NCBI RefSeq assembly: GCF_020886775.1
Contig: NZ_AP024525.1
Span: forward strand, 3,472,001-3,536,000
Direction: 5' to 3'
Source of the DNA: Sinomonas cyclohexanicum
Lineage (GTDB): Bacteria > Actinomycetota > Actinomycetes > Actinomycetales > Micrococcaceae
DNA: 64,000 bases
The notes under the pieces were generated by a model. It made no database searches. It had not been told where the DNA came from and saw only the letters and a program-made list of their open reading frames with translations. Below are positions 29,845 to 41,044 of the stretch, piece by piece. Both the position numbers and the translations under genes were made by a program. Position 1 is the first letter of the stretch. Every line of letters starts with the position of its first letter.

Positions 29845-31779
29845 GTGAGCCCCGGCATGCCACAGCGCGCCCCTGCAGCCGCCCCACCGGGCGGCGCCCG
29901 ACCGGGCACGGCCCAGCAGACGAGGTACTGGGCGTCAATCGCCCGTCTGGGACCGCTCGTGCGCCCCATCGTCCCGCGTCTGCTGATGGGCCTCGTGGTG
30001 GCGCTCGCGGCCTCGGCGCTGGCCCTGGCCGTCCCGCAGGTGCTGCGCCTCGTCATCGATGAACTCGTGCGCAGCGGGACGCAGGGATCGGCCGTGTGGG
30101 GAGCGGCCGGCGTCGTGCTTGTCCTCGGCGTGCTCGAGGCGAGCATGATCTACCTCCGCCGGGTACTCGTGATCGAGCCGAGCATCAGCCTCGAGCGGCA
30201 GATGCGCGTGGCCCTCTACGACCACCTGCAGGACCTCCCGGTCTCGTTCCACGACCGCTGGGGCTCGGGGCAGCTGCTCTCGCGGTCCATCGCGGACCTC
30301 GGGTTCCTGCGCCGCTGGCTCGCCTTCGGCGCGATCTTCCTCGTCGTCTCGATCAGCACTGTGGCGCTCGGCGTGGTGCTGCTGTTCACGCTCGCGTGGC
30401 AGCTGGCGCTGATCTTCCTCGCCGCGGCCCTGCCGATCATGGTCTACGGCGCAATCTTCCGCCGGCGGTTCTCCCTCGCGACGCGCCGCAGCCAGGACCT
30501 GGCCGGCGACCTCGCCACGACGGTCGAGGAGTCAGTCCACGGGATCCGAGTGCTCAAGGCATTCGGCCGCGCGCGGGAGGCGCTCGAGGGCTTCACAGAG
30601 CAGGCCCAGCAACTGCGCGAGACCGAGGTCGCCAAGGCCCGGCACCAGGCCCTGTTCAGCCTCGTGGTGACCCTCCTGCCCGAGCTCGCGCTCGGCGTCG
30701 GGCTCATGGTGGGCATCTGGCTCGCAGCGACCGGCCAGCTGAGCATCGGCTCGCTCGCGGCGTTCTTCGCCACCGCCGCAGCCGTCGCGCAGCCGGTCGA
30801 GGCGAGCGGCATGCTCGTGGGTATGGCACTGACCGCGAAGACCGCGGTGGACCGCCACTTCGAGGTCATGGACGCGGAGAACACCCTCACGGACCCCGCC
30901 GAGCCGCGGCATCTCCCCGACCCGCGCGGCGCGCTCACGTTCCGCGACGTGCGCTTCGCGTTCACAGCTCCCTCGCACGACGGCGCGGGGCCGCCTCGTG
31001 CGGACCTCCCGCCAGCGGCTGGCCCGCCGGGCGTACTGCGCGGCGTGAGCCTGGACATCCGCCCGGGCGAGACGATGGCCCTCGTGGGGGCGACGGGCTC
31101 GGGCAAGAGCACTCTGCTGCAGCTCGTCCCGCGGCTGTACGACGTCACCGGCGGAGCCGTGGAGATCGACGGGATCGACATCCGCCGGCTGCCTCTCGCC
31201 GAGCTGCGGCGCCTCGTCGCGGTGGCCTTCGAGGACACGACCCTGTTCTCGTCCTCGGTCCGCGAGAACGTCCTGCTCGGCGCGCCCGTTCGGGAGGGAC
31301 CCGAGGCGGAGGCGCTCCTCGAGGAGGCCCTCGACGTCGCGCAGGCCCACTTCGCGCACTCGCTCCCGGACGGCCTCGACACCCGCATCGGCGAGGAGGG
31401 CCTGAGCCTCTCCGGCGGGCAGCGGCAGCGCATCGCCCTGGCCCGCGCGATCGCGGCCCGGCCCGCGGTCCTCGTGCTCGACGACCCGCTCTCGGCGCTG
31501 GACGTCGCCACAGAGGAGCGAGTCTCGGAGCGCCTCGGCGACGCCCTCGCCCACACCACAACGCTCATCGTCGCCCACCGCCCCTCGACCGTGGCGCTCG
31601 CGGACCGAGTGGCGCTCCTGCGGGACGGAGTCATCGAGGACGTCGGCACGCACGCAGAGCTGCTCACGCGCAGTGAGCACTACCGCTGGGTCATCGCGAG
31701 CCTGCCCCGCGGGCCGCGGGACCTGGACAGGGACCGCGAGCCCAATCTGGACGACGTCTACTCGAAGGAGGCCCGGTGA
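29845..31779 (+). CDS. ABC exporter subunit A (fused membrane and ATPase domains)
   Basis: This 644-residue half-transporter has six transmembrane segments (about 30-320) and an ATPase domain with Walker A GATGSGKS, signature [14 protein letters not shown] and switch LIVAHRPST. The Walker B reads [12 protein letters not shown], so the catalytic glutamate is replaced by aspartate. Its signature motif is canonical. Such a split is typical of the degenerate-site subunit of heterodimeric exporters, pairing with the next gene. GTG start with an AGG upstream; the last base pairs overlap the second subunit (GTGA). The substrate is unknown, possibly drugs or lipids. Confidence 0.93.
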
Positions 31780-33677
31780 CCCACGCGACCCTCGGAACGC
31801 GCGGCGAGGACGCGGTAGACCTCACGCGGGAGGCGAGCCGCGCCGTCCGGCGTCGCTCGCTCGCTCTCCTCGGCGACCTCATGCGCCCCGTGCGGGGCCG
31901 CCTGGTGGCCACGCTCGCGATGGTCGTCGTCTCGCAGGCCAGCCGCGCGGCGGGGCCGGCGATCATCGCGTTCGGGATCGACCGCGCGCTGCCCGCGTTC
32001 GCGTCCGGCGATCCGAGGCTCACGTGGCTCGTCGGCGCAGGCTATCTGGCCGCGGCGCTGACGACGGCGCTGCTCACCGCCGGCTACGTGACCTCCACGG
32101 CGCGCCTGAGCCAGGCGATGCTGCTGGACCTGCGCGTGTGGGTGTTCCGGCACACCCAGCGCCTGAGCCTGGACTTCCACGAGACGTACACGTCCGGGCG
32201 GATCATCTCGCGGCAGACCTCGGACCTCGAGGCTCTGCGCGAGCTTCTCGACTCAGGCGTGAGCGCCCTTGCCTCGGGCCTCCTGTTCATGCTGTTCACG
32301 GCGATCACCGTGTTCGCCCTGGACTGGCCGTCGGGGCTCATCATGCTCGCCGCGGCCGTGCCGATGACGCTCCTCGCGCGCTGGTACCAGGTCCGCTCGC
32401 AGCGGGCCTTCCGTGCCTCGCGAGTGGTCTCGGCGCGCCTCATCGTGCACTTCGTCGAGACGATGACCGGCATCCGCGCGGTCAAGGCGTTCCGCAAGGA
32501 GCGCGCCAACAGCGCCGAGTACGGCGTCCTCGCCGACGACTACGCCGCCGCAACCCAGCGCTCCGTCATGCTCAACGGCGTCTTCCAGCCCGGGCTCGTG
32601 CTCACGGGGAACGTGACGGTGGCCGTCATCCTGCTCGTCGCTGCGTTCCGGGTGCTCGAGGGAAACCTCGCGGTGGGCGTGCTGCTCGCCGTCGTGCTCT
32701 CCACGAAGCGGTTCTTCAGCCCCCTCGAGACGATCGCGATGTTCTACAACTCGTTCCAGAGCGCCCAGACAGCGCTCGAGAAGGTCTCGGGGCTGCTCGA
32801 GGAGGTGCCCACGGTGCAGCCGCCGCGGGACCCGGTGCAGCTCCCCGCGGCGCGCGGGGAGGTGGCGTTCGAGTCCGTCTCGTTCTCGTACGCGTCGGGG
32901 CCCGAGGTGCTGCCGGAGTTCACGCTGCGGATCCCGGCCGGCCAGACCGTCGCACTGGTGGGGGCGACCGGGGCGGGCAAGTCGACGCTCGCCAAGCTCG
33001 TGGCCCGGTTCTACGACCCCACCTCGGGCGCGGTGACGCTCGACGGCGTCGACCTCCGCCGGCTCTCGACGCGGGACCTGCGGCGCGCCGTCGTCATGGT
33101 GACGCAGGAGGCGTTCCTGTTCTCGGGGTCCGTCGCGGACAACATCGCGCTCGGGCGTCCGGACGCGTCGCGTGAGGAGATCGAGGCGGCCGCGCGCGCC
33201 GTGGGCGCGCACGGGTTCATCTCGGCACTGCCGGACGGGTACGACACGGACGTCACCAAGCGCGGCGGCCGCGTCTCCGCGGGGCAGCGGCAGCTCATCT
33301 CGTTCGCCCGGGCCGTGCTCGCGAGCCCGGCCGTCCTCATCCTCGACGAGGCCACGAGCTCCCTGGACATCCCCTCGGAACGGCTCGTGCAGGCCGGCCT
33401 CGCGAAGCTGCTCAACGGCCCCGGCACGGACGGCGCCGCGGCGCACGACGGCGGCGGCCCCCCTCGGGCGGGCGGCGACGGCGGGGCTGGGGCGTCCGGT
33501 GCGGGCGCGCGGACGGCGATCATCATCGCCCATCGGCTCTCGACCGTCGAGATCGCAGACCGGGTGCTCGTGGTGGACGGCGGGCGCATCGTCGAGGACG
33601 GATCGCCTGCGGAGCTCCTGGCCGGCGGCGGCCGGTTCGCCGCCCTCCACGGGGCCTGGCGCGACTCGCTCGTGTAG
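31776..33677 (+). CDS. ABC exporter subunit B (fused membrane and ATPase domains)
   Basis: This 633-residue partner starts at a GTG overlapping the stop of subunit A. It has Walker A GATGAGKS, a degenerate signature [14 protein letters not shown], a canonical Walker [12 protein letters not shown] with the catalytic glutamate, and switch IIIAHRLST. Together with subunit A this leaves one intact ATP site (B Walker motifs plus A signature) and one degenerate site. An unusual Gly/Ala-rich insert of about 30 residues (around 552-582) lies between the D-loop region and the switch histidine. Confidence 0.93.
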
Positions 33678-34146: not shown

Positions 34147-36929
34147 CTAATGGTGCGGCAGGACCGGATGAGTCCTGCCTCGACCGAAGCGATGCCGCAT
34201 GGCCTTGTGGACGGCGTCGCCGATGACGACCCCGGGGATCGCGAGCGCGGCGATCACGAACCCTTCGAGCGGCGGTGGGGCCTGGCCGAGCACGGCTGCC
34301 ACCGGGCCGATGAAGAGGAAGACCGCCAGAAGTGCGAGCTCCACGAGGATCGCCCAGAGGAGCATCCGGTTGCCAGTCCACGAGAGCCTCCACGCGGACC
34401 GGCTCGCGCTGCGGCACGCATAGGCATTGGCGAGCTGCCCGAGCACCACGGCCGTGAATGCCGCCCCCGAGGCCGCGGCAATCACGCCCACCGGAGGCAG
34501 GTCCCCGCCCGGCCGCCAGCCACCGAGCCACAGGACCCACGCGAACGCGGCCATCTCGAAGACGACCTCCACCGGCCCGAGCACCGCGAAGACCCGGAAC
34601 ATCAGGCTCCCGTCCATGAGGTGGCGCCGCTCTGGGGGCCGCTTGAGGACCCCAGCACTCGGCTTCTCGCCGCCGAGGGCGAGCGCAGGCAGGAGGTCCG
34701 TCCCGATGTCCAGGCACAGGATCTGCAGGACTCCCAGGGCGAGTGGGAAGTGCCCCGCCGACAGCGCCCACACGACGAACGGCGTGAGCTCGGCAACGTT
34801 GTCGGTGAGGTGGTAGGTGAGGAAACGGCGGATGTTCGCGTAGGTGGCGCGGCCCTGCTCCACCGCGACGATGATGGTCGCGAAGTCGTCGTCGAGGAGC
34901 ACGAGGTCTGCCGCATTGCGCGCCACGTCGGTCCCGCTGCGCCCCATGGCGACCCCGATGTCCGCCGCCTCGAGAGCGGGACCGTCGTTGACGCCGTCGC
35001 CCGTCATCGCGACGCAGTGCCCCCGCGCCTGCAGCGCGTGCGCGACGCGCAGCTTCTGCTCGGGCGTGACGCGGGAGATGACCACGCCGTCCCGGTCCAG
35101 GAGCGCGCCCAGCACCTGCTGGTCCTCCGGCAGGCTCGCACCCGAGAGGACGTCGTCGGGCCCTGCGGGGTGGTCGATCAGGCCGATCTCCCGGGCGATC
35201 GCCGCGGCCGTCATGGGATGGTCCCCAGTCACCATCGCGATCCTGATCCCCGCCTCGCGGGCCTGGCGGATGGCCCCGGCCACGGCGGGCCGGGGCGGAT
35301 CGTGCAGCCCGACCAGACCGCGGAGCACCAGGTCCCGCTCAAGAACGACGGCGTCGGCCTCTCCCGCCGCCGCTGCGCGGACTTCCGCGCCGGTCATCCC
35401 GCGCGACGCTACCGCGAGGACCCTCAGTCCGCGCTGCGCAAGCGCTTCGATGGCGGCGTGCGCACGTCCGCGCCACCCGCCGTCGCCCGGCCCCTGGGCC
35501 TCCCCCCGGTCAGGGTGGCGCTCGGCGCGATCGTCGGCGCTGTGGTCGCCGATGCACAGGTCCAGCAGCACCTCGGGAGCACCCTTGACCCAGAGCTCCC
35601 CGGCCTCGGCCTCCCCCGGGAACGAACCGGCCCCCAGGACGGCGCTCTGCCGCTTCCGCTCGCCGTCGAACGCGAATCCCGCGATCGGCACGATCCCCTC
35701 GGCCTCACCGCCAAGCCGGCGATCGAGGGCCGTCAGCGCGGCCTCCATGGGGTCGCCGACGGCGCGCCACTCGCCGTCGTGGGACACTCGATGTCGCCCT
35801 GCGAGGCCGCACGTGCACCGGCCGCGAGCTGCGCCGCGGCCGCGACGGCGCCGGCCGGGCCGTCGACCGCCGCCTCGGGGGCGTACCCGGGCCCCTCGAT
35901 GGCCACCGACCCCGCAGGCGTCCAGACCTCGACGGCCCCCATCCGGTTCTGGGTGAGCGTCCCGGTCTTGTCGGTGCAGATGAAAGTGGTGGACCCGAGC
36001 GTCTCCACAGCCTCGAGGTTGCGCACGAGCGCATGCCTCCGGCTCATCCGCTGGGCACCCATGGCAAGCGAGAGGGTGACCGTGGGGAGGAGCCCCTCGG
36101 GGACCAGCGCCACCGTGACACCGATCGCGAACAGGAACGCGCCGGCAAGCGGGTTGCCGATGAGGAGCGAGACGAGGAAGAACGCGGCCCCCACCGTGAC
36201 GGCGACGATCGCGATGATCTTCACGATCCGCCTGAGCTCGAGATCAAGCGGGCTGGGCGGGGGCTCGGCCCGCGTGGTGAGGCGGGCGATCTCAGCGAGC
36301 CGCGTCGATGTGCCCGTCGCGGTGACGCGACCGACGGCGTCTCCCGCAGCGACGAAGGTGCCGCCGGCTCCCGCCTCGCCCGCCCCGCGCGGCACAGGCA
36401 CACTCTCGCCGGTCAGCATGGACTCGTCGACAGAGACGCCGGAGGCCTGCAGGAAGTCGAGGTCTGCGGGGATGCGGTCGCCGGCCGTCAGCAGCACGAT
36501 GTCTCCGGGGACGAGCTCGGCCGCGTCGACCACGGTGGTCCGCCCATCGCGCCGGACTTGGACGTTGCTCGGCAAGAGCTCCCGGAGCTTCGCCGAGGCC
36601 CGTTCTGCCCGTGCCTCCTGGAAGAACGCGAAGAGCCCGTTGATGACCACCACCGCGGCGATGGCCCAGCCCAGCTCGGGCATGCCGGCGACGAAGGCGA
36701 GAATCGAGGCGGCCCACAGCATGAGGGCGAAGAAGTGCGCCAACTCCGCCCCGAGCCGAAGCCACCATGGTCGCGCCTTCTCGCGCGGAAGGCTGTTGGG
36801 GCCGAACTGCCTGCGGAGCTCCCCCACGGCACGGGTGCCGAGGCCGTCCGCCACGGTCATTCCCGAGGCTGGCCGCACGCGGCCGGGCGGGACGGCCTGG
36901 CGGCCAGAGGAGACGCTCACGGACCACAT
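34147..36929 (-). pseudogene. Cation-transporting P-type ATPase (P2 type), frameshifted
   Basis: The N-terminal part has the actuator TGES (SMLTGESVPVP), the membrane PEGLLPTVTL motif and the phosphorylation motif CTDKTGTLT. The C-terminal part has GDPMEAAL, MVTGDHPMT and TGDGVNDGPALEAADIG, then the last membrane helices (DNVAELTPFVVWALSAG). They are in different frames: reading is lost at about 35780-35790, where restoring one G (GAG-GTG-TCC) gives IEVSHDGEWRAVGDPMEA. The joined protein would be about 927 residues. The transported ion (Ca2+, Na+ or another) is not evident. ATG 36929 is the chosen start; 36974 is possible. Confidence 0.85.
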
Positions 36930-36982
36930 TCTGGTGCCCAGAGGGGCCATCCGGAAGGGGCCTAGTACCTGCACGCACGACA

Positions 36983-37055: not shown

Positions 37056-37280
37056 TCACATCGGGTCGGGCCAGTTGCCGATTCCCCCCTGGGGCGACAC
37101 CTGCATGGGGTCGGGCAAGTTGCCGATGGCCACCGGAGCCTTCATGGGGTCCGGCCAATTGCCGATGGCCTGGACCCGCATCGGGTCGGGCCAGTTGCCG
37201 ATCGCCGTCGGCGCGCCGGCAACGCCCGATACCGCGAGGGCGCCTCCCACCGCAAGCGCTGCAATCAGTTTCTTGAGCAT
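37056..37280 (-). CDS. Secreted repeat peptide precursor (four IGN-W/L-PDPM copies), putative pheromone
   Basis: This 74-residue precursor begins MLKKLIAALAVGGALAVSG, a clear signal peptide with likely cleavage near residue 23-26. The rest is four near-identical octapeptides: IGNWPDPM (27-34, 39-46, 67-74) and IGNLPDPM (52-59). They are separated by RVQA, KAPVA and QVSPQGG, and the last ends at the stop codon. No enzyme or structural domain is present. AAGGA precedes the ATG by 8 bases. It has its own promoter and is divergent from an HTH-TPR regulator (start 37493). Multi-copy precursors next to such a receptor suggest a peptide signal; a RiPP or a wall-associated repeat protein are alternatives. 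I do not recognise the family. Confidence 0.8.
   Translation of the reverse strand: MLKKLIAALAVGGALAVSGVAGAPTAIGNWPDPMRVQAIGNWPDPMKAPVAIGNLPDPMQVSPQGGIGNWPDPM
37059..37202 (-). repeat. Four 24-bp coding repeats of the peptide precursor
   Basis: The copies lie at 37179-37202, 37143-37166, 37104-37127 and 37059-37082 (first to fourth in the protein). They encode IGNWPDPM three times and IGNLPDPM once. Synonymous differences between copies with the peptide conserved point to selection on the peptide rather than recent DNA duplication. Confidence 0.9.
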
Positions 37281-37368
37281 CTTCTTGTCCTTGAATTCTG
37301 TCGCGTGATGACGCGGGACTGGGTGCGTGTTTCCGGGCGGAGCATGCTTTGTCGTGATTGACATGCCT

Positions 37369-37397
37369 AGTAAAATATCTTCCACATGGCCTGTCAA
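37369..37397 (-). promoter_or_regulatory. Predicted promoter of the repeat-peptide gene
   Basis: On the minus strand a consensus -35 box TTGACA (37392-37397) is followed after 17 bp by TTTACT (37369-37374). Transcription would start near 37362, giving a leader of about 80 bases. The surrounding 212-bp divergent region is notably A/T-rich for this genome and is the natural place for operators of the HTH-TPR regulator. Confidence 0.6.
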
Positions 37398-37492
37398 GGA
37401 GAGCCGCCGCCTTCGGGACGCCTCCTGATGGGCTGCGGCACACACAGCAACCCGGGGTTCGAACGGTCTCGGGAGGGGGCCAGGAGGTCAAC

Positions 37493-38794
37493 GTGGGTAG
37501 TGGATTCGGCGAGAAACTGCGTGCTGAGAGGCTCGAGCGCGGGCTGACGCAGGCAGAGCTCGGCAAGGACCTGTACTCACCGAGCTACATCTCGCTGCTC
37601 GAGACCGGTCGCCGTGAGCCGACGGCGGAAGTCATCCAAGAACTGGCCCGGCGGCTCCAGCTCGCGCCCAAGGCCCTCGAGGCGTGGAGCCAGCCCGTCA
37701 GCGCCAACGACGCCGAATATGTCCTCGCAGGGCTCTACGCCCGCCAGGCATGGGACCTCCGCGACTACGCGCAGGCCGCCACCCACGCCGCCACGGCCGC
37801 CCAGTTTGCCCTCGACGGGAAGAACAACAGCGCGTGGTGGAACATGACATACATGCAGGCCGAGTGCCTCATGAAGCAGGGCGAGCTCGCCGAGTGCCAG
37901 CGGATCGTCCAGCACCTCCTCGAGCACCCGATCGTGGCGGAGTCCGCCGGCCTCGCGGTGCGCGCCCGTCAGATGCTCGCGGCGGTCTGCCACGGGCTCG
38001 GCCAGCTGGGCACTGCCGTCGAGCACGCCCGTGAGGCCGTCCGCCTGGGCGCCCAGCTGCCGCCGGGATCCACGATCTACATCGGCGCCCTCCGGGCCCT
38101 CATCGGCGCCCTCGCGGAGAGCGGCCGCCTTGACGAGGCGTGGGACCAGTGCCGCATCCTCGCGACGCTCGTCGACGAGGACTCGATGGGCCAGCTCGCA
38201 GGCGAGGTCGAGTGGGTCATCGGGAATGTCGCGTTCATGCGCGCCGACTATGAGGAGGGCGTCAAGCACCACGAGCGTGCGGCCAAGCTCCTCTCCCCCG
38301 CCAATGACATCGAGCTGTGGGCCCGCTTCAACAAGGCCTCGGCCGCCGTGCGCCTCTCGGGCGGGATCATCGAGCCCGAGACTCTCGCGGCGATCGAGCG
38401 CGCCGAGCTCGCGCTGAGCATCGTGGGCGGATCACGGGCCGAACAGCTCGAGGTGATGTTCATCCGGGCGCGCTGGCTGTACCTCAACGGCCAGATCCCC
38501 GAGGCCATCGAGCTCCTGCGGACCATCTACGCGGAGAAGTCCGCGCTGGGGCGGCACACGGCCGGCGAGGTGGCGCTCCTCTACGGCCGTGCCCTGAAGG
38601 CCCTGGGCCAGAATGAGGAGGCCCTCGAGCTCCTGAAGGACGCCCGCGAGCAGTTCAGCTACGCGGGCGCCTCAGACAAGGTTCAGCAGACGATGGACGC
38701 AATCCTGGAGATCCGGCTCGCCGCGCAGCGCGCAGAGCGAGGCGCGGAGAAGAGCGGCGCCCAGGAGACCGTCGGGAAGGGCGCCGCCAGCTGA
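37493..38794 (+). CDS. XRE-type HTH regulator with TPR domain (RRNPP-like receptor)
   Basis: This 433-residue protein has an N-terminal HTH (about 5-60; LTQAELGKDLYSPSYISLLE). Helical tetratricopeptide-like repeats fill the rest (about 75-420; for example AQAATHAATAAQFALDG and GQIPEAIELLRTIYAEK). The start is a GTG with a perfect AGGAGGT 4 bases upstream. HTH plus TPR is the architecture of RRNPP receptors (PlcR, Rgg, PrgX, NprR), which bind short secreted peptides re-imported into the cell. Here the divergent neighbour encodes a secreted repeat peptide. Direct binding and target genes are inferred. A general TPR regulator without a peptide ligand is the alternative. Confidence 0.88.
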   Translation: MGSGFGEKLRAERLERGLTQAELGKDLYSPSYISLLETGRREPTAEVIQELARRLQLAPKALEAWSQPVSANDAEYVLAGLYARQAWDLRDYAQAATHAATAAQFALDGKNNSAWWNMTYMQAECLMKQGELAECQRIVQHLLEHPIVAESAGLAVRARQMLAAVCHGLGQLGTAVEHAREAVRLGAQLPPGSTIYIGALRALIGALAESGRLDEAWDQCRILATLVDEDSMGQLAGEVEWVIGNVAFMRADYEEGVKHHERAAKLLSPANDIELWARFNKASAAVRLSGGIIEPETLAAIERAELALSIVGGSRAEQLEVMFIRARWLYLNGQIPEAIELLRTIYAEKSALGRHTAGEVALLYGRALKALGQNEEALELLKDAREQFSYAGASDKVQQTMDAILEIRLAAQRAERGAEKSGAQETVGKGAAS

Positions 38795-38798
38795 CCCG

Positions 38799-39725
38799 TC
38801 AGCTGAACGTGCGTCCCGTGAGCCGCTCGTACGCCTCGACGTAGCGCGCCCGGGTGCGCGTGACGACGTCGTCCGGCAGCACCGGGGCCTCCTCGCCGGA
38901 GGCCCGGTCCCAGCCGGATTCGTCGGAGGTCAGCCAGTCACGGACAAACTGCTTGTCGAACGAGGGCTGGGCGTGGCCGGGCTCCCACGAGGCGGCGTCC
39001 CAGAACCGCGAGGAGTCCGGGGTGAGGACCTCGTCGCCGAGCGTGATGATCCCCGAGGCCGGGTCCACGCCGAACTCGACCTTGGTGTCCGCGAGGATGA
39101 TCCCCCGCTCCCGCGCGATCCGCTCTGCCTCGCGGTACAGCTCGAGTGTGAGGTCGCGCAGCTGGGCGGCGGCCTCGTCGCCCACCATGCCGGTCACGTC
39201 CTCGTAGGTGATGTTCTCGTCGTGCTCACCGAACTCCGCCTTCGCCGAGGGGGTGAAGATTGCCTCCGGCAGGCGCGAGCCGTCCACGAGGCCCTCGGGA
39301 AGCGGGATCCCGCACACGGTGCCGGACTCGCGGTACTCGAGCAGACCGGAGCCGGTGAGGTACCCGCGGGCGATGCACTCGACCGGGTACATCTCGAGTC
39401 GACGGCAGATCATCGCGCGGCCCACGACCTCGGCGGGGACTCCGTCGTCGACCGTGGAGCCGATCACGTGGTTGGGCACGTTGAGCTGCTCGAACCACCA
39501 CAGGCTCATCTGCGTGAGGATGCGGCCCTTGTCGGGGATCGTGCTCGCCAGGACGTAGTCGTAGGCGGAGATGCGGTCGCTCGCGACGACGAGGACCTCA
39601 CCGGACTCGCCCGGTCCGGCCTCCGCGGGCTCATACAGGTCGCGAACCTTGCCCGAGTAGATGTGCCGCCACCCCGGCAGATCGAGGACCTCGGTCGTGT
39701 AGCCCTTCGTGTTCTCGCTGGTCAT
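38799..39725 (-). CDS. purC: Phosphoribosylaminoimidazole-succinocarboxamide synthase
   Basis: This 308-residue purine biosynthesis enzyme (SAICAR synthetase) joins aspartate to CAIR using ATP. Seen segments are SGKVRDLYE near the N-terminus, VVASDRISAYDYVL, VECIARGYLTGSG and DTKVEFGVD, which bind ATP and substrate. Length fits actinobacterial PurC. The ATG at 39725 overlaps the purD stop (TGATG), with a GTG one codon earlier as alternative. The gene ends 4 bp from the convergent HTH-TPR gene end, with no terminator between. Confidence 0.95.
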   Translation of the reverse strand: MTSENTKGYTTEVLDLPGWRHIYSGKVRDLYEPAEAGPGESGEVLVVASDRISAYDYVLASTIPDKGRILTQMSLWWFEQLNVPNHVIGSTVDDGVPAEVVGRAMICRRLEMYPVECIARGYLTGSGLLEYRESGTVCGIPLPEGLVDGSRLPEAIFTPSAKAEFGEHDENITYEDVTGMVGDEAAAQLRDLTLELYREAERIARERGIILADTKVEFGVDPASGIITLGDEVLTPDSSRFWDAASWEPGHAQPSFDKQFVRDWLTSDESGWDRASGEEAPVLPDDVVTRTRARYVEAYERLTGRTFS

Positions 39726-41044
39726 CACTCGGCTCCCGTTCCGGCGCTGTTCTGGGCGCCCGTCGACACGCCGGGCACGCTCACGCCGCCCCGCGCCGCC
39801 TTAGCGGCGATGTCTCGGCGGTACTGGCCGCCGTCGAGCTTGATCAGCTCGATCCCCTCGTAGGCCTTCTCGCGGGCGTGCGTGAGATCCTCGCCGAGCG
39901 CCACGACGGCGAGCACACGCCCGCCGGCGGAGACGACCTTGCCGTCGTCGGACAGCTTCGTGCCGGCGTGGAGGACGTGCACGCCCTCGAGCGCCGCGGC
40001 CTTCTTAAGGCCGCGGATGCGGTCGCCGGTACGCGGCGTGTCCGGGTAGTTCTCTGAGGCGAGCACGACGGCGACCGCCGCCTCGGGCGCCCAGCGCAGA
40101 GTCTCGGCCTGGTCGAGACGGCCGGTCGCGGCCGCGAGGAGGAGGCCGCCGAGCGGCGTCATGAGCCGGGCGAGGACGGCCTGGGTCTCGGGGTCGCCGA
40201 ACCGGGCGTTGAACTCGATGACGCGGGTTCCGCGCGATGTGAGGGCGAGGCCGCAGTACAGCACGCCGACGAACGGCGTGCCGCGCTGGGCCATCTCGTC
40301 GACGGTCGGCTGCGCGACGCGCTCGATCACCTCGTCGACGAGGCCCGCGGGCGCCCACTCGAGCGGCGTGTACGCGCCCATGCCGCCGGTGTTGGGGCCC
40401 TCGTCGTTGTCGAAGATGCGCTTGAAGTCCTGCGCCGGGGCGAGCGGGACCACGGTGCGGCCGTCGGAGAGGACGAACAGGGAGACCTCGGGGCCGTCGA
40501 GGAACTCCTCGATCACCACGGACCCGCCCGCGTCGAAGCATGCCTGGGCGTGGGCGAGGGCCGCGTCCCGGTCGGATGTCACGACGACGCCCTTGCCGGC
40601 GGCCAGCCCGTCGTCCTTCACCACGTAGGGGGCGCCGAACGTGTCGAGGGCGTCCGCGGCCTCCTCGGCATTGACCGCCACGCGCGCCATCGCGGTCGGC
40701 ACGCCGGCCTCGGCCATGACCTGCTTCGCGAATGCCTTGGACGCCTCGAGCTGGGCGGCGGCCTTGCTCGGCCCGAACACGGGGATGCCGGCCGCGCGGA
40801 CGGCGTCAGACACGCCCGCCGCGAGCGGGGCCTCCGGCCCCACCACCACGAGGTCCACGCCGAGCGTCTCCGCGAGCGCCGTGACGGCCGCAGGGTCGTT
40901 GGCGTTGACGGGGTGGGTGGGGACCACCTGGGCGATGCCGGCGTTGCCCGGGGCGGAGTGCACCTCGGTGACGCTCGGATCGGCGAGGAGGGAGCGTACG
41001 ATGGCGTGTTCGCGGCCACCCGGGCCGATCACGAGAACCTTCAC
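39725..41044 (-). CDS. purD: Phosphoribosylamine-glycine ligase
   Basis: This 439-residue GAR synthetase of purine synthesis has an ATP-grasp fold. Visible parts are VLVIGPGGREHAIV at the N-terminus, VVKDDGLAAGKGVVV, GPEVSLFVLSDG and EFNARFGDPETQAVL. The start is a GTG (V-K-V-L-V-I-G) 88 bp from the divergent asparaginase; upstream in-frame sequence is not protein-like. It is coupled to purC by stop/start overlap. Confidence 0.95.
   Translation of the reverse strand: MKVLVIGPGGREHAIVRSLLADPSVTEVHSAPGNAGIAQVVPTHPVNANDPAAVTALAETLGVDLVVVGPEAPLAAGVSDAVRAAGIPVFGPSKAAAQLEASKAFAKQVMAEAGVPTAMARVAVNAEEAADALDTFGAPYVVKDDGLAAGKGVVVTSDRDAALAHAQACFDAGGSVVIEEFLDGPEVSLFVLSDGRTVVPLAPAQDFKRIFDNDEGPNTGGMGAYTPLEWAPAGLVDEVIERVAQPTVDEMAQRGTPFVGVLYCGLALTSRGTRVIEFNARFGDPETQAVLARLMTPLGGLLLAAATGRLDQAETLRWAPEAAVAVVLASENYPDTPRTGDRIRGLKKAAALEGVHVLHAGTKLSDDGKVVSAGGRVLAVVALGEDLTHAREKAYEGIELIKLDGGQYRRDIAAKAARGGVSVPGVSTGAQNSAGTGAE

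Follow-up and report, generated by a model that had tools for sequence, protein, structure and literature searches.

Is a short secreted-type repeat protein, encoded next to an HTH-TPR regulator, the precursor of a signal that this regulator senses? The question is raised by a locus in the window analyzed here, the whole stretch of 64,000 nucleotides from Sinomonas cyclohexanicum (NZ_AP024525.1, positions 3,472,001 to 3,536,000). Translation confirmed the arrangement described in the original prediction, a 74-residue secreted-type precursor in which IGNWPDPM occurs three times and IGNLPDPM once, encoded divergently to an HTH-TPR regulator of 433 residues. The precursor gene (37056..37280, minus strand) encodes MLKKLIAALAVGGALAVSGVAGAPTAIGNWPDPMRVQAIGNWPDPMKAPVAIGNLPDPMQVSPQGGIGNWPDPM, in which a signal-peptide-like segment spans approximately residues 1 to 23 (assigned from its pattern and not by SignalP, with the cleavage site placed by eye). 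Translation and a genome motif search located the four octapeptide copies, all on the minus strand: copies 1 and 2 (37179..37202 and 37143..37166) read IGNWPDPM, copy 3 (37104..37127) is the variant IGNLPDPM, and copy 4 (37059..37082), again IGNWPDPM, is C-terminal and abuts the stop codon, which follows immediately 3' of the last Met. The earlier description of a signal peptide followed only by octapeptides is right as to the four copies and wrong as to "only," since linkers of 4 to 7 residues (RVQA, KAPVA, and QVSPQGG) lie between them.

The divergent gene (37493..38794, plus strand) encodes the 433-aa regulator, the proposed intracellular peptide receptor, which was studied by translation, Pfam, AlphaFold2, and Foldseek. 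Its start codon is GTG, with an AGGAGG sequence 5' of the start that is kept across Sinomonas. Pfam analysis revealed an HTH domain (HTH_3/HTH_31) at residues 5 to 64 and TPR matches at residues 157 to 388, and the AlphaFold2 model (pLDDT 91.6, pTM 0.78) comprises the HTH followed by a TPR superhelix. When this model and that of a related receptor consisting of the TPR part only (L131; see below) were searched with Foldseek, the top rows were LGN-type (eukaryotic) TPR-peptide complexes and designed TPRs, ahead of PlcR and Rap. For the regulator, the PlcR-PapR7-DNA complex was the first HTH-TPR regulator in the list (rank 15, E value of 8e-7), with PlcR at rank 22 and Rap-CSF at rank 40. No RRNPP, Rgg, Rap, or AimR family model in Pfam or NCBIfam matched the regulator up to an E value of 1, and in a PDB sequence search the only match from RRNPPA proteins was to the HTH of PlcR (E value of 0.009). 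Among the 50 matches listed from a viral structure library, none was an arbitrium receptor by name; giant-virus and other TPR proteins ranked top. A mobile-element origin was considered and rejected, as the regulator had no match in plasmids (E value of 1e-20) or phages (E value of 1e-10).

The divergent promoter region contains a conserved 39-bp element, TTGAC-N7-GTAAAAT-N4-YCYACA-N5-TGTCA (37358..37396, no strand assigned), which was identified by alignment of loci and a site scan and is a candidate operator. The element is conserved in Sinomonas and in g9 (Arthrobacter and relatives). With up to 5 mismatches, and with no chance estimate attached, it also was found in g18, g19, two g24 genomes, two of three g28 loci, and the one g29 locus scanned; it was absent from the third g28 locus (L087) in the mismatch-tolerant scan. 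Its first 29 bases occur at one site per genome in 15/15 Sinomonas genomes, so that with at most one mismatch no regulon is visible outside the locus. The original prediction gave the precursor its own consensus-like promoter. The promoter scan does not bear this out, as its sole sigma-70-like site lies on the regulator strand, with a -10-like TAAAAT inside the 39-bp element; inspection of the peptide strand of the element by eye does favor it, revealing TTGACA, 17 nt, and TTTACT.

A search of Micrococcaceae for HTH-TPR genes with a divergent PDPM-repeat gene had been proposed, and it was productive. The DNA pattern for GN[W/L]PDPM was present in 30/245 family genomes, and a reversed control pattern was present in 0/245. 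The 30 comprised 15/15 Sinomonas (g1) genomes and 15/17 g9 genomes, and in the remaining two g9 genomes GNWPDPA is found next to the regulator gene. We then considered named relatives in Sinomonas, Arthrobacter, Paenarthrobacter, and Pseudarthrobacter, taking the best 80 of 306 loci. A divergent precursor was found in 80/80, and the motif formed the C terminus of the precursor in 69/80. The number of motif-pattern matches per precursor was one (5 loci), two (40), three (14), four (17), five (3), or six (1). Under a rule requiring at least 4 of 8 matches, which is still biased towards similar copies, there were 227 copies in these best 80 loci, of which 174 were exact; per-position identity was G 227, N 223, W 225, P 220, D 226, P 220, and M 207. 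Codon differences between copies within one precursor were silent in 574 cases and residue changing in 101, and the 139 linkers comprised 94 different sequences. The predominance of silent codon differences, the mostly exact copies, and the variable linkers point to selection acting on the peptide itself, as opposed to constraint on the DNA sequence or a recent duplication of the copies. The octapeptide, then, is conserved between species and stays nearly fixed while copy number varies from one to six motif matches, the pattern that the original prediction proposed to look for.

We consider it probable that the WP peptide and the TPR protein form an RRNPPA-like peptide signal-receptor system in Actinomycetota. 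In the mechanism that we propose, the precursor would be exported from the cell, and proteases would release peptide copies of 7 to 8 residues built on an (I/V)GNWPDPM core. These would re-enter through a general oligopeptide importer (four SBP_bac_5 importer proteins are encoded in the genome) and would bind in the groove on the concave face of the TPR superhelix, altering the action of the HTH at the shared promoter region; the output would most likely be feedback on the precursor gene, plus further targets. We infer from this arrangement that the regulator senses the peptide. The likeness to RRNPPA would be one of mode of working, and descent is not supported by any family-model match. The peptide-pheromone reading of the original prediction is supported by these data; the variant peptides, a TPR-only clade with GGDEF-EAL neighbors, and stray peptide ORFs, described below, had no place in it.

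The wider receptor family was sampled as 113 loci, made up of the 30 top matches and 83 hand-picked from among the matches listed, beyond which there are more, and is not a random sample. By a fixed rule, an ORF with a WP motif was divergent to the receptor in 76/113 loci, compared with 2/2444 control windows; the controls are overlapping windows from the same loci, and the motif rule was written after the peptides had been seen. The rule was satisfied by 54/90 HTH-TPR loci and 22/23 loci whose receptor has the TPR part only. Inspection raised these to 56/90 and 23/23 by adding L026 (one internal copy), L093 (WIWPD), and L136 (IDDWPH), leaving 34/90 HTH-TPR loci without an adjacent precursor (L081, in which the N terminus of the receptor is not resolved, was counted as HTH-TPR). 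On sequence evidence, the gene pairing is well supported, and close homologues of the regulator are accompanied by the peptide gene (15/15 Sinomonas genomes and 80/80 of the best named loci, of 306), compared with 56/90 of the HTH-TPR loci examined.

Beside the receptors of other groups, the peptide varies: GNWPDP followed by S, A, T, or F in g19, GIWPN in g18, GNWPDA and GNWPN in g28, GNWPD in g29, GEWPH in g30, GNWPDRF in g15, GDWPH in g17, and WIWPD and GIWPD in two g24 genomes. When compared by eye with the receptor tree, peptide type tracks receptor clade, and we envisage that in related genera receptor and peptide would have drifted jointly to other WP peptides. Of the 34 HTH-TPR loci without a precursor, 13 are g24 orthologues and nine are paralogues in Sinomonas, and several others belong to distant branches. 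The g24 orthologues without a precursor may have a different gene directly upstream. A conserved antisense ORF upstream of the g24 receptors may be the terminal part of a gene lying upstream; ARAGORN found no tRNA that could be its source. In family f17 (three genomes with HTH-TPR matches), no WP precursor was found in the four short loci examined. Among the Sinomonas HTH-TPR paralogues that lack a WP precursor, the upstream ORF appears from its sequence to be metalloprotease-like (L092) or polysaccharide deacetylase-like (L097 and L101).

In RRNPP proteins, conserved Asn residues of the groove hold the peptide backbone. Asn245 and Asn280 of the regulator lie 35 residues apart, in helices 233 to 249 and 273 to 289, which are successive first TPR helices. 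Every one of the 78 aligned receptors that has a WP precursor carries both (56/56 HTH and 22/22 TPR-only receptors). Among receptors without one, both are present in 13/13 g24 proteins, and Asn245 and Asn280 are present in 15 and 17, respectively, of 21 others. Because the 13 g24 receptors without a precursor keep both, these residues do not separate peptide users from other receptors.

The TPR-only receptors (23 loci, approximately 335 to 373 residues) form one clade in a quick tree (21 rows, SH-aLRT of 98; L150 and L136 were excluded). Their peptides include IGWWPN, IGWWPD, VGSWPF, VNNWPY, IGNWPY, and AGNWPH, among others. The 22 precursors scored are 46 to 103 residues long; 15 are single copy, and 19 end within 3 residues past the WP. 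The AlphaFold2 model of L131 is a pure TPR superhelix (pLDDT of 93.6) with no separate N-terminal domain, for which Foldseek placed RapH at rank 46 and RapI at rank 48; a TPR superhelix, putatively cytosolic, thus is predicted for both receptor types. A gene for a GGDEF-EAL (cyclic-di-GMP) protein lies within approximately 3 kb in 19/23 TPR-only loci, compared with 0/60 HTH-TPR loci with such flanks, and 11/11 neighbor genes scanned had both GGDEF and EAL domains, several also having HAMP. The other four loci (L122, L124, L134, and L150) are near a gene with a chitin-binding-type module (CBM_5_12) or near one similar to such a gene. With no HTH, this branch probably would act via protein contact, often on the neighboring GGDEF-EAL enzyme. 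In L131 (2514-2942), L127, L135, and L147, a DUF7793-type gene was noted between the receptor and GGDEF-EAL genes, with a GAF-HisKA kinase gene upstream. Two TPR-only receptor genes stand in tandem in L134 and L136 (g31), and the two in L136 are paired with separate precursors that differ in peptide (IDDWPH and GNWPG).

That TPR-only receptors retain WP precursors indicates that the pairing is independent of the HTH. This bears on the idea that the secreted repeat protein works outside the cell (as a wall-bound, antimicrobial, or metal-binding protein) and that the regulator, responding to another ligand, only controls it. A signal-peptide-like start, a divergent gene, and a shared promoter region are what a regulator and its target would display, but the branch with no HTH keeps a divergent WP precursor in 23/23 loci, copy number and linkers vary around a short peptide that is nearly fixed, and leaderless forms exist. 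We consider this explanation unlikely.

The leaderless forms are of two kinds. In g10 and g32, six short receptor-adjacent ORFs have no signal peptide by eye and end in VNWPF, GDWPHA(A/D), GDWPD, or GNWPD; L271 is a seventh ORF of this kind. In addition, 15 GNWPDPM sites lie away from any receptor, in 12/30 genomes. No relative of the regulator was found in these 15 loci by tblastn (best E value of 0.8), and the 39-bp element was represented in them by one poor site (L064, 7 mismatches). In the 14 loci that were read (L066 contains a run of N and was left out), the ORFs are 11 to 69 residues long, most with AGGAGA or a similar ribosome-binding-site-like sequence in front. A signal-like segment is present in three (L073, L074, and L076) and missing from most, and six ORFs of 11 to 29 residues with no signal peptide by eye end in GNWPDPM (L065, L069 to L072, and L075). 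Two stray ORFs combine peptides: L067 (G243) has two IGNWPDPM copies and one IGWWPD, the peptide of the TPR-only precursor of the same genome (L135), and L077 (G123) has IGWWPN and IGNWPDPM, the former being that of its TPR-only precursor (L131). These cases, which number only two, suggest that the HTH-TPR and TPR-only peptides may belong to one network. A leader or arrest peptide was entertained as a possibility for the 11-residue ORFs but was thought unlikely for the main gene because of its repeated precursor and signal-like start.

Pfam analysis of 10 neighbors of stray ORFs identified a PRC-barrel twice and otherwise little. The stray ORFs of L065 and L073 adjoin the PRC-barrel genes, and in L065 an ATG lies approximately 30 bases past the 11-residue ORF. 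In L064, L068, L069, L071, L075, and L077, a gene near the stray ORF encodes a protein that starts with or contains a signal segment (GWLLLSGAA, for example); Pfam assigned no family to five of these six proteins and a weak collagen-like one to that of L071.

Simple export leaves the missing signal peptide of most stray copies and of the six g10 and g32 precursors unaccounted for. The short ORFs ending in GNWPDPM, together with the leaderless precursors that adjoin receptors, would be the basic form if the peptide were an intracellular ligand acting in the cell that produces it. We judge this very unlikely, given that a signal-peptide-like segment can be made out by eye in the receptor-adjacent precursors of Sinomonas and of the best 80 of 306 loci. 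A broader scheme, offered tentatively as possible and rather less than probable, is that Actinomycetota have their own WP-code peptide family, in which HTH-TPR receptors would serve transcription and TPR-only receptors would set cyclic-di-GMP via GGDEF-EAL proteins; stray ORFs, most of them leaderless and some with both peptides, would feed the receptors inside the producer and so link several genes to one signal. The GGDEF-EAL neighbors suggest a direct route from peptide signal to cyclic-di-GMP, and short synthetic peptides could be tried directly on common soil strains.

The preferred reading, an RRNPPA-like signal and receptor, can be compared with characterized pairs. Like PlcR-PapR of the Bacillus cereus group, the Sinomonas system joins an HTH and TPR regulator to an adjoining short gene for a putatively exported propeptide (its export signal being assigned by pattern). 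It differs in phylum, in having no detectable sequence family, in its WP peptide, in its divergent precursor, and in having up to 8 motif copies. The N-terminal HTH detected by Pfam (HTH_3/HTH_31) is an RRNPPA trait that is absent from Rap, as it is from the TPR-only clade. The TPR-only pairs resemble Rap-Phr of Bacillus in having a TPR-only receptor and a short Sec-type precursor with the peptide as its C terminus; unlike Rap, the modeled receptor has no separate N-terminal domain, and its usual neighbor is a GGDEF-EAL gene. To our knowledge, a GGDEF-EAL protein is not a known Rap partner. In the accessible portions of the literature, RRNPPA systems are placed in Bacillota and their mobile elements (PMC9765709, PMC12700828, PMC11343458, and the review PMC13220807), repeated propeptides are known there, and RRNPP_detector was applied to Firmicutes and viruses (PMC10075063). 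Tandem-repeat propeptides of Bacillota likewise have several pheromone copies per precursor (PMC11343458 and PMC9765709). As far as the excerpts of these papers go, repeated copies are common for AimR, NprR, Rap, and PlcR (PMC9765709), and pseudo-repeats are more frequent than identical ones (PMC11343458), whereas at the HTH-TPR locus repeats are the rule and mostly identical. We found no report of WP peptides or of an actinobacterial RRNPP or peptide-pheromone system in a literature search that covered subscription papers and preprints thinly. A version conserved in synteny in Micrococcaceae would carry cytosolic peptide sensing into a second phylum.

The surroundings of the locus bear on one further explanation. 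The gene at 38799..39728 (minus strand), which from its sequence we take to be purC, is a conserved neighbor, adjoining the receptor in 112/163 loci (80 of the 163 being close named relatives), and for this reason the HTH-TPR locus looks old; purC is not thought to be part of the system. A presumed ABC exporter gene, so named from its sequence (31776..33677, plus strand), has counterparts near the receptor in 89/163 loci. Such exporter genes, and repeated cores with linkers, would suit a multicore RiPP (modified-peptide) or bacteriocin precursor whose expression the regulator controls. This is highly improbable, as no maturation enzyme was recognized by sequence reading among the syntenic neighbors compared (ABC transporter, P-type ATPase, purC, and purD) and peptide type tracks receptor clade. 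Slippage can create short repeats, but we give practically no credence to a functionless chance or low-complexity repeat, which is contradicted by conservation across genera, by the reversed control (0/245) and control windows (2/2444), and by the 574 silent against 101 residue-changing differences. The P-type ATPase, judged as such from its sequence (34147-36974, minus strand), appears split between overlapping ORFs that differ in frame (34147-35787 and 35733-36974), which may reflect a frameshift or a sequencing error.
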